This document shows, piece by piece, positions 59,355-62,221 of a stretch of 64,000 nt of DNA (positions are counted from its first letter, which is position 1; every line of letters starts with the position of its first letter). The DNA is from Xanthocytophaga agilis (GTDB lineage Bacteria; Bacteroidota; Bacteroidia; Cytophagales; 172606-1): NCBI RefSeq assembly GCF_030068605.1, contig NZ_JASJOU010000005.1, forward strand, positions 372,001 through 436,000. Direction: 5' to 3'. A program made the position numbers and the translations under genes. The notes under the pieces are model-generated. The model had not been told where the DNA came from. It searched no databases and worked only from the letters and a program-made list of their open reading frames with translations.

Positions 59355-59732
59355 ATGAAATTGTTTCTACTATTTTTTACATGCATGATTATGCTATTAG
59401 TATCATGCCAGTCCATCGATGGTATAGGCCCTGAATCCAAAAGATCTGCACCAGCTTGTGGAGTTAATAATCCGGTAGAAGACCTACCCTGGCTCAAGGA
59501 ACTAATCAAAAAATCCAATAAAGATCCGGAAAGTCCTTACTGTGTATTACAAAGTGTTCAACAAGGTACATATGAGGGACAAACGATTTACGTTCCTGTT
59601 GTCTCAGGAGCACTATGTTGTACATGTGCTGGGGTTGCTGCCTATAACTGTCAGGGAGACCTCTTATTTAGTTGTAATGTAGATGCCTCATCAAAAATTA
59701 CAAATATTAAAACAATCTGGACGCTGAAATAA
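59355..59732 (+). CDS. Small Cys-rich lipoprotein
   Basis: 125 residues. Lipoprotein signal FLLFFTCMIMLLVSC (Cys 18). The mature part has Cys residues in SAPACGV, SPYCVL, GALCCTCAG, YNCQG and FSCNV, an unusual density that suggests disulfides or a metal site. The family is not recognised. Confidence 0.65.
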   Translation: MKLFLLFFTCMIMLLVSCQSIDGIGPESKRSAPACGVNNPVEDLPWLKELIKKSNKDPESPYCVLQSVQQGTYEGQTIYVPVVSGALCCTCAGVAAYNCQGDLLFSCNVDASSKITNIKTIWTLK

Positions 59733-59756: not shown

Positions 59757-60114
59757 ACATAAGTCATCCTAAATTTTGGATATGAGTAAAACCCAAGCTT
59801 ATGTTTTTGAAAATTGTGTAGGCTTGGGTTTAATTTTGGAAAATCTCTCTTTCTACATTTGTTTATAGTCCATTACATCACTCTTCCATTGACCTCTTAC
59901 TTTTTTGCTTGCCCAAAAAAGTAAGCAAAAAAAAGCACTTTTCTCCGATCCTTCCGCCCGCAAGGCCAAAGGCCAACCTCGCGAAGAAAAGATTCCCTAC
60001 GCACCTACACCACCTTCCACGATTGAAGTCGGCACCACTCTCTTTGTAAGTCCTTTACTTCTTTTCTTTTAAAGGATGTGATATCCTTTTCCTTAAAACT
60101 TGGGATGACTCATG
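59757..60114. mobile_element. MITE-like element, left copy
   Basis: 358 bases bounded by imperfect terminal inverted repeats: ACATAAGTCATCCTAAATTT at the left and the complement of ACATGAGTCATCCCAAGTTT at the right. Inside are two hairpins: AAACCCAAGC with GCTTGGGTTT (59789-59831), and CTTACTTTTTT (59896-59906) with AAAAAAGTAAG (59915-59925). A GC-rich centre follows (59948-59985). No ORF. No clear target-site duplication. An inverted copy lies at 61172-61514. Confidence 0.75.
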
Positions 60115-60226
60115 TTTCTATTGATTAATGGGAGGCAATAAAAGCCACTCTGCCAGTAATGACACAAATCAATAAAACTACCGTTTTATGATGAATTTAT
60201 ACAAATAATCCCCTTTATCGATCTGC

Positions 60227-60234
60227 TACCTTTG
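60227..60234 (+). promoter_or_regulatory. TAnnTTTG -7 element for the DUF1080 gene
   Basis: TACCTTTG, 34 bases before the ATG, outside the MITE-like element. Confidence 0.6.
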
Positions 60235-60268
60235 GGCTTTTATCTATTCCACCCACTTTATAGGTATT

Positions 60269-61141
60269 ATGAAATATAGCCTCTTTGTCCTTTTAATCTT
60301 AGTAATTATCTGTGTTCCTTCATTCAAGCCCAAAGACCAATGGACACCGTTATTAGACAAGAAGTTGTCTAACTGGGAAATGTATCTGAGCTTTCGTCAT
60401 ACACGCGATTACAAAGGTGACGCTCCAAAAGACGAATCCGGTTCGTTGATCAAACCGATTGGGTATAATACGAATGAAAAAAACGTCTTTTCGGTGATAG
60501 AAGAAAAAGGCGAACCTGTATTACGAATCAGTGGAGAAATCTATGGGTCGGTATTTACCAAACAGGAATATGAGAATTATCATCTGAAACTCAAAGTCAA
60601 ATGGGGTGATAAAAAGTACGAGCCTCGCATAGAGAAACTGCGGGATAGTGGCATACTGTATCACTCTGTAGGTGAAAGTGGTGTGGACTATTGGAGAGCC
60701 TGGAAGTTATCACAAGAGTTCCAGATCATGGAAGGTCATATGGGTGATTACTGGAATATTGCTAACTCTGCCATTGATATTCGGGCATTTTTGTCAGAGG
60801 GAGATATGAATAGTGTAGCTAGTACTACTCAGTCATTTTTGCCATTTGGTACAGGTGTACCAGGACGTGGATTCTGCCTGCGTAGCGAAAACTATGAAAA
60901 GCCAAACAATGAATGGAACACACTGGAATTAATCTGTTTTCAGGATAAGAGTCTACACATCGTGAATGGCCATGTGGTGATGGTTCTCCAGCATTCACGA
61001 TACATGGAAAACGGCAAGGCGATACCTCTTACCAAAGGCAAGATCCAATTACAGAGTGAAGCAGCAGAAGTATTATTCAAAGATATTCAGATACGAAAAA
61101 TCCAAGCAATACCTACTGAGTATGCACCTCTCTTTCAATAG
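60269..61141 (+). CDS. DUF1080 (3-keto-disaccharide hydrolase-like) secreted protein
   Basis: 290 residues. Signal peptide LFVLLILVIICVPSFK. The concanavalin-like DUF1080 fold is visible in WTPLLDKKLSNWEMYL, EPVLRISGEIYGSVFTKQEY, NYHLKLKVKWGDKKY, DSGILYHSVGE, QEFQIMEGHMGDYWNI and KIQLQSEAAEVLFKDIQIRKI. DUF1080 proteins are often linked to 3-keto-glycoside hydrolysis in Bacteroidota and Planctomycetes. The gene has its own promoter and is flanked on both sides by inverted MITE-like elements. Confidence 0.9.
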   Translation: MKYSLFVLLILVIICVPSFKPKDQWTPLLDKKLSNWEMYLSFRHTRDYKGDAPKDESGSLIKPIGYNTNEKNVFSVIEEKGEPVLRISGEIYGSVFTKQEYENYHLKLKVKWGDKKYEPRIEKLRDSGILYHSVGESGVDYWRAWKLSQEFQIMEGHMGDYWNIANSAIDIRAFLSEGDMNSVASTTQSFLPFGTGVPGRGFCLRSENYEKPNNEWNTLELICFQDKSLHIVNGHVVMVLQHSRYMENGKAIPLTKGKIQLQSEAAEVLFKDIQIRKIQAIPTEYAPLFQ

Positions 61142-61171
61142 AAGCATACTCGTGTAAGTAAATCTCAAAAA

Positions 61172-61514
61172 ACATGATTCATCCCGAACTTTGAATAAAA
61201 GACGTATCTCTTGTTAAGAAACAAAGGCGCTACAAAGAGAGCAAAGATGACTCCAATCGTGGTTGGTCTTGTAGGTGCGTAGGGATAAAAATTCCGCGGG
61301 CCTAGCGTTGGCTGTGCCGGGCGAAGCTTTGGAATTTTTTGTCCTTTTTGGGGTACTTTTTTGGACAAGCAAAAAAGTACCATGCCGCAAGAAGAGTGAT
61401 GTAAGTGACAATAAACAAATGAAGAAATAAACATCTCTCAAAAATTAACCCAAGCCTACACAAAAACATAGGCTTGGGTTTTATTCATATCCAATATTTG
61501 GCATGACTCATGTC
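61172..61514. mobile_element. MITE-like element, right copy (inverted)
   Basis: 343 bases, the reverse complement of the left copy in plan: terminal repeats ACATGATTCATCCCGAACTT (left) and the complement of ACATGAGTCATGCCAAATAT (right). Hairpins GGTACTTTTTT (61352-61362) with AAAAAAGTACC (61371-61381), and AACCCAAGCCTA with TAGGCTTGGGTT (61447-61480). Also shared blocks GTAGGTGCGTAGGGA and GCAAAAAAGTA. The centre differs in sequence from the left copy but keeps position and GC-rich character. Confidence 0.75.
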
Positions 61515-61570: not shown

Positions 61571-62155
61571 TTATTTCTGTATTGTTTTCAGGAACTCAAT
61601 TAGTTTCTGTACTGCTTTTCCCCTGTGACTGATACTTCCTTTTTCATCCAATGTCATCTCAGCAAAGCTTTTCTGATATCCATTGGGCATAAAGATGGGA
61701 TCATATCCAAATCCTCCTGTACCTTGTTGATGTTCCAGAATATGCCCCTCAATTTTACCTTCGAACAGATGTTTTTCACCATTAATGATAAGGGCTATAC
61801 AGGTACGAAAACGAGCATTACGATTTTCTTTCCCCTGAAGATTCTTCAGTAGAAGATCCATGTTATCATTATTATTGCGTTGGGGACCTGCATAAAAAGC
61901 AGTATTTACTCCAGGCTCACCATTAAGGGATTCTACTTCAATACCAGAATCATCGGCAAAACAACTTACACCAAAATGCTCCCACACATATTCTGCTTTC
62001 TCAAAAGCATTTTCTTCAATGGTATCATGTGTTTCAGGAAGTTCATCATAACAACCTATTTCCTGTAAGCTAACAATGTGAAAATTATTACCAACCAGTC
62101 TGGAAATTTCCTCAATCTTGTGGCGATTATTGGTCGCAAAACATAACTGCATCAT
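61571..62155 (-). CDS. rdgB: Non-canonical purine NTP pyrophosphatase (RdgB/HAM1)
   Basis: 194 residues. Removes dITP and XTP from the nucleotide pool. Start LCFATNNRHKIEEI, then FADDSGIEVESLNGEPGVNTAFYAG, the family signature, GFGYDPIFMPNGYQKSFAEM and SHRGKAVQKLIEFLK. Start at ATG 62155 or the adjacent ATG 62152; 17 upstream codons are not conserved-looking. Confidence 0.95.
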   Translation of the reverse strand: MMQLCFATNNRHKIEEISRLVGNNFHIVSLQEIGCYDELPETHDTIEENAFEKAEYVWEHFGVSCFADDSGIEVESLNGEPGVNTAFYAGPQRNNNDNMDLLLKNLQGKENRNARFRTCIALIINGEKHLFEGKIEGHILEHQQGTGGFGYDPIFMPNGYQKSFAEMTLDEKGSISHRGKAVQKLIEFLKTIQK

Positions 62156-62221
62156 ACGATTCGGGGGATCTTTTACCCGCGAATCTACACATCCTTTGGA
62201 GAACAAGAAAGAATGTAGCCA

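Follow-up and report, generated by a model that had tools for sequence, protein, structure and literature searches.

The DNA analyzed here, referred to as the window, is a 64-kb stretch (G000:C5:372001-436000) of the 9.77-Mb genome of Xanthocytophaga agilis. Near its end, a gene for a DUF1080 or 3-keto-disaccharide hydrolase protein is enclosed by two noncoding elements, copies A and B, which face in opposite directions 1056 bp apart (Table 1). A begins 24 bases after the stop codon of a 125-aa ORF of the same strand, and 30 bases lie between the DUF1080 stop codon and B, which sits between convergent genes, with a Ham1-family gene on its far side.

Table 1. Copies A and B and the features around them (positions in the window)
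Feature	Position	Strand	Remarks
Upstream ORF	59355..59732	+	125 aa; no Pfam match at E 0.01
MITE copy A	59757..60115	+	359 bp; congener G001 has it at the equivalent place (87% identity)
Left TIR of A	59757..59778	+	2 mismatches to TIR pattern
Terminator-like hairpin within A	59789..59831	+	Stem, then AATTTT; arms also in the A/B match; missed by one hairpin scan
Right TIR of A	60094..60115	-	2 mismatches to TIR pattern
DUF1080 / 3-keto-disaccharide hydrolase gene, bystander	60269..61141	+	PF06439, E 4e-24
ORF across B	61165..61434	-	89 aa; by inference spurious
MITE copy B	61172..61513	-	342 bp; not in G001, which has a perfect hairpin with a 21-bp stem there
TIR of B, DUF1080 side	61172..61193	+	2 mismatches to TIR pattern
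Terminator-like hairpin within B	61447..61480	-	15 pairs, then AATTTTT; from hairpin scan
TIR of B, Ham1 side	61492..61513	-	2 mismatches to TIR pattern
Ham1-family gene, convergent, far side of B	61571..62206	-	

A preliminary description of the locus, made from the letters alone, had read both gaps as one noncoding element in opposite orientation. This is borne out: the two gaps share three collinear inverted matches (119 nt at 80%, 70 nt at 77%, and 53 nt at 89% identity), and A and B align over their full length (best block E 2.7e-29). The limits given earlier were nearly right, being off by one base at one end of each copy, and the terminal inverted repeats (TIRs), put at 16–20 bases, are real but longer: they are imperfect, about 22 bp in length, and have the consensus ACATGAGTCATCCCGAATTTTG. 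The two copies had also been described as free of ORFs; neither holds a transposase ORF, but an 89-aa ORF that looks spurious spans B. No third copy was found in the 64-kb window, where only short, chance-level matches occur.

Outside the window, the element is a member of a large family. At least 52 sequences in the window's genome match A (40 of 156 candidates were scored) and at least 57 match B (40 of 145). When three mismatches are permitted, the 22-bp TIR has 111 sites there (53 + 58), compared with 0 + 0 for the reversed control, and 89 sites (49 + 40) in the congener G001; in addition, it was found in three of 57 other genomes searched (G005, 1; G034, 8; G010, 1). From 90 loci of the window's genome, 37 paired-TIR sequences were obtained and 36 were kept, L056 being rejected as a family member because it does not align to the others. 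It had been considered that each gap might be unique in the genome, with terminal repeats absent elsewhere, or that the two copies might align only at random level; this was checked, and the many genome-wide copies contradict it. The label "MITE-like" has likewise held, since the elements are short, noncoding, TIR-bounded, and multi-copy, and their TIRs are common to autonomous elements, namely five intact ISs in other genera. Consistent simple target duplications were found neither among 36 own-genome elements nor among 25 elements of other genera, which agrees with the earlier remark that A and B have no clear one. When 67 listed TIR sites of the 111 in the window's genome were grouped into 49 clusters, two adjacent pairs lay less than 2 kb apart against 0.48 expected under uniform placement, a slight excess on small numbers. 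A scan of named genomes with a TIR 20-mer includes Xanthocytophaga flavus (L245) among the matches listed. Chloroflexota-labelled MAGs contain the 20-mer as well (SAR202, Thermoflexus, and Anaerolineales; L237, L261, L272, L289), through either transfer or binning error.

The interior of the element is a string of hairpins. Some stems differ between copies while their pairing is kept (CCCAAGCC/GGCTTGGG or ATCAGCGCC/GGCGCTGAT, by eye among the sequences listed), and a multi-hairpin core of ~190 bp (TTTTTTGCTTGYCCAAAAAA ... CTCTCTTTGTA) was without recognizable TIRs in 13 of 22 loci checked. Both observations would suit a functional structured RNA or regulatory element whose TIR ends are incidental. 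We consider this unlikely: the window has no Rfam match at gathering thresholds, and in G034, which has no match to A, the TIRs surround other interiors. Copies of the TIR-less core include L013, L016, L018, L028, L068, and L077, and a ~40-bp piece of the core is also found in further members of the same family and, within the order, in two further families. A terminator-like hairpin is found on at least one strand in 26 of the 36 own-genome elements, compared with 14% of block-shuffled copies, and on both strands in only six of the 36; termination by the elements is a prediction.

The geometry of two opposite copies around one gene is that of a composite transposon or an invertible cassette, and inversion or joint movement of a cargo gene had been proposed at the outset. 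The congener G001 argues against this. Its contig C55 is collinear with the surroundings of the window in long blocks of 90–96% identity, and it has A, DUF1080, and the neighboring genes in the same order and orientation, without B. Hence A and B differ in age and nothing has been inverted, and the copies have neither moved nor turned together with a cargo. As A and B are moreover only 77–89% identical by block and 73% overall, a composite or invertible unit is very improbable; DUF1080 looks like a bystander between two separate copies, and the inverted pair looks like a coincidence. The hairpin of the G001 DUF1080–Ham1 gap (AATCACCCTTTATCTTTTGAT...ATCAAAAGATAAAGGGTGATT) starts within one base of the start of B in the window's genome. 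The right flank of B has diverged and its right junction is inexact. At another place, the own-genome site L002 (C5:445398) and its G001 equivalent L121 bear different elements in opposite orientation beside the same terminator-like hairpin, which suggests that one site has been used repeatedly.

The elements lie characteristically behind genes. The 36 own-genome elements were examined with a simple ORF caller, and 31 of the 32 that could be classified (B, whose locus was truncated, is among the four that could not) face at least one gene 3' end, at a median distance of 29 bp. Their gaps are convergent in 18 cases, tandem in 13, and divergent in one. Among 100 background gaps of at least 80 bp, taken with the same kind of crude caller from the window and from six own-genome stretches selected because they surround elements, 18 are convergent, 58 tandem, and 24 divergent (p 6e-5 for convergent and 0.008 for non-divergent gaps). 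In other genera, 25 elements were examined and all 20 that could be classified, three of the five intact ISs included, face a 3' end at a median of 26.5 bp, in 12 convergent, eight tandem, and no divergent gaps. At the junctions, the stem-like symmetry of the flanks exceeds that of shuffled pairings both at home (p 0.003) and in other genera (p 0.006); by a second statistic, the excess is not significant at home (p 0.081) and is equaled in 0 of 1000 shuffles in other genera. It is as if lower stems sometimes survive insertion. One of two L233 copies, an apparent assembly mirror, was excluded from the symmetry tests and the other-genera position test.

A transposase had not been found in the preliminary description. 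This stands insofar as none that is intact was found in the window's genome, but intact ISs with the same TIRs exist in other genera and a dead relic exists at home. In G005, a broken transposase lies between TIRs (L122:4129-5711), and a search with part of this sequence uncovered a degraded relic in the window's genome (C21, about 38.7–40.0 kb), one end of which is a TIR; a second TIR was not found at C21. The TIR 20-mer scan of named genomes gave, among the matches listed, at least five intact ISs of 1431–1461 bp with both TIRs: in Lewinella cohaerens (L216), Flectobacillus sp. (L221), a Bacteroidota MAG (L255), Spirosoma luteum (L271), and Aureispira sp. (L291). The transposase ORFs of these ISs are 446–458 aa long, and one TIR encodes the last residues of the protein, QNSG, and its stop codon. 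The own-genome relic is homologous to the five (tblastn, E 1.8e-47 with L271). An autonomous copy with two good TIRs 1–3 kb apart was not seen among the matches listed for the window's genome (125 sites), and G001 has no transposase match at E 1e-5. DNA of the L216 IS had no match among PLSDB plasmids.

The transposases have the features of the IS4 superfamily. The DDE_Tnp_1 domain (PF01609) scores above its cut-off in four of the five TIR-matched ISs and in G039, with L255 just below it (21.4 against 23 bits), and the Y-2-R-3-E-6-K motif is present in all six aligned transposases. The curated NCBIfam cut-off of the IS4 family is not reached, the best score being 58.5 of 152 bits; hits extend to the IS701, IS1634, and IS1380 models, and every curated NCBIfam cut-off reported lies above the transposase scores. 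The NCBIfam/Pfam library includes an IS1182-type model. No IS1182 model is among the NCBIfam or Pfam hits at E 0.01. In G039, a genome of another family, a more distant relative is present as three open copies; the G039 transposase was found in 0 of 395 genomes of a class-wide sample at E 1e-30, a weak result because the sample held no genome known to match.

The preliminary description had called for a check of empty-site polymorphism, which was made between the window's genome and G001. The 100-bp flanks of 34 own-genome elements (A and B excluded) were compared with G001, where 27 orthologous places were used and seven flanks had no usable place (L003, L004, L051 twice, L063, L081, L089). 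At these 27 sites and B, the element is absent in G001 at 13, both genomes are occupied at 12, and three were left out as unresolved (L009, L021, L022). In the opposite direction, the flanks of 11 G001 elements, which are those of 23 paired-TIR sequences with flanks outside the set of own-genome loci and so favor sites empty in the window's genome, were all placed there: the element is absent at six, both genomes are occupied at two (L119, L184), and three were unresolved and left out (L112, L181, L195). One further G001-only site, that of the L120 element, was seen in the locus comparison. Sites occupied in both genomes (12 own and two of G001, and A besides) are uninformative. The 20 informative sites thus comprise 13 at which G001 is without the own element and seven at which the window's genome is without that of G001.

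At 15 of these 20 sites, an unrelated hairpin stands in the place of the element: in G001 at L057, L044, L027, L088, L090, L058, L008, L014, and B, and in the window's genome at the counterparts of L107, L179, L176, L101, L189, and the L120 element. The junctions of L008 and L014 were read by eye. At least one junction is inexact at L107, L176, L101, L014, the L120 site, and B, whose left junction agrees within one base. At three sites (L075, L079, L200), a hairpin is found on both sides of the element and a single one in the other genome; at L011 another palindromic repeat takes the place of the element, and L049 is a weak case. A second palindromic repeat (CGTTGGTGTTATCACCAACG ... GTTGGTGATAACACCAAC) occurs in or beside the same hairpin sites in G001, at L149 (the ortholog of L011), L120 (~18.9 kb), and L121 (~8.3 kb), as if it likewise targets hairpin sites. 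Folding energy places 14 of the 19 sites covered (the L120 site was excluded) among the top 2% of 60-nt windows from the ~3 kb around each site, and L057, L079, L090, L049, and L101 fall outside this range. In the outgroup G002, no match was found for the 11 G001 flanks, to which that search was confined.

The species compared have flanking blocks that are about 83–98% identical, and between them the target inverted repeat is replaced without a conventional target duplication. Seven of the replaced segments, 18–47 nt long, have base-exact flanks on both sides (L057, L027, L088, L090, L058, L179, L189). Each is an end-to-end palindrome that pairs over 5–17 bp, when a one-base offset at either end is allowed, and random windows pair as well in only 1–122 of 20,000. 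These segments bear on the question of whether elements were inserted in the ordinary way beside terminators and the old hairpin, made redundant by the terminator of the element, was later lost by mutation. The frequent terminator-like hairpins of the elements and their position shortly after genes are both in keeping with such a course. Gradual decay should, however, leave remnants and ragged ends, and the lost segments are the palindromes themselves, with base-exact flanks and no traces of arms, while the flanking blocks of the five own-to-G001 base-exact cases are still 82.8–97.0% identical. We therefore regard later loss as improbable, if marginally less so than the structured-RNA interpretation. 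Alternation of hairpin and element would likewise result if the hairpin in the element-free genome were the scar of an excised element. The hairpins vary from site to site and by eye are unlike the 22-bp TIR, the closest being L058 with the ends ACATG/CATGT, and an origin by excision is highly unlikely.

At the three sites with hairpins on both sides, the flanking hairpins of L075 and L079 score better as direct copies (24 vs. 18 and 18 vs. 8, respectively), so that both fit a duplication of the whole hairpin. At L200, a G001 element with the own counterpart L201, the inverted alignment of the right hairpin has a slight advantage (24 vs. 20). This is at odds with plain duplication, which predicts no inverted copy, and L200 has no clean fit.

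The explanation that we hold to be probable is that A and B are separate MITE insertions, mobilized in trans by the IS4-like DDE transposase of ISs with the same TIRs, and that hairpins downstream of genes are targeted and mostly replaced. The target would be a structure and not a sequence, namely a hairpin just downstream of genes and probably an intrinsic terminator. In most insertions, the hairpin would be lost from its base and the element put in its place, and in a few a hairpin would be left on each side. We infer that a stem-loop may be extruded in cruciform DNA and that strand transfer occurs at its feet, as in the published IS1272 model; attack at the 3' feet would remove the stem-loop, and attack at the 5' feet would duplicate it. 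The usual replacement of the target fits the absence of a target duplication. B would thereby have displaced the terminator-like hairpin behind DUF1080; the simplest timing is after the divergence of the two species, and A would be the older insertion. Insertion may be tolerated because the terminator-like hairpin present in many copies could itself serve as a new terminator. Present-day mobility in the window's genome and G001 is conjectural, as an intact transposase was found in neither. On a wider scale, the balance tips slightly towards a Bacteroidota-wide IS4-like lineage in which targeting guided by terminator hairpins, with either exact replacement or duplication of the whole hairpin, evolved independently of IS1182/IS1272, and whose MITEs form a genome-wide terminator-swapping system, host terminators giving way to those borne by the elements.

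Among known systems, the ISs of the IS4 superfamily share with these elements the DDE_Tnp_1 domain, the Y-2-R-3-E-6-K motif, and terminal inverted repeats. A target duplication of fixed length is usual for IS4 relatives, whereas the present elements have a hairpin target and transposases that score below the curated NCBIfam cut-offs. Group IIC introns also insert at transcription terminators, but they are not known to replace them and are retroelements without TIRs or a DDE transposase. Among Bacteroidota, the MITEs BrickBuilt, MITE239, and MITE700 of Porphyromonas gingivalis are IS5-linked and similarly have TIRs common to a full IS, and for 10 of 19 BrickBuilt copies flanking terminators and/or polyadenylation sites are predicted, according to the part of the source considered (PMC4596501). 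They differ in their TIRs (GAGACC... or ACGTCA...), their short irregular duplications, and their IS5 family, as given in the same part (PMC4596501).

The closest parallel is provided by IS1272 and TnSha1 of the IS1182 family in staphylococci, for which structure-dependent, stem-loop-replacing transposition has been proposed, as set out in the sections consulted of the two reports cited here (Furi et al. PMC4923244; Wan et al. PMC5678879). Any inverted repeat can be a target there, whatever its sequence; it is often a terminator, it is wholly or partly replaced with no conventional target duplication, and a single terminator can be hit repeatedly and in either orientation (PMC4923244, PMC5678879). 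In the model, the transposase attacks the feet of the stem-loop, the 3' feet giving loss and the 5' feet duplication (PMC5678879, PMC4923244). Like these elements, the window's genome and G001 bear different, opposite elements at one terminator. Unlike IS1272, the transposases here hit IS4-type and related models and no IS1182 model, the hosts are Bacteroidota, and most copies are MITEs; moreover, L075 and L079 have hairpins on both sides, an outcome that the consulted section of Wan et al. presents as a model pathway without an example (PMC5678879). A search of titles and abstract openings outside subscription journals returned no literature on this element or on hairpin replacement by an IS4-type element. 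Stem-loop replacement has been described for one IS family; the IS4-like Bacteroidota lineage, the occurrence as MITEs and in such copy number, the comparison in both directions, and the presence of both outcomes in one family are new. The recurrence of this pattern in another DDE lineage, in numerous copies and two sister genomes, points to hairpins as a wider class of target for transposons. It also implies that terminators can be exchanged as genomes evolve while the genes suffer little damage. Candidates for both outcomes predicted by the IS1272 model, loss and duplication, are at hand, and the intact elements named above are available for a biochemical test.
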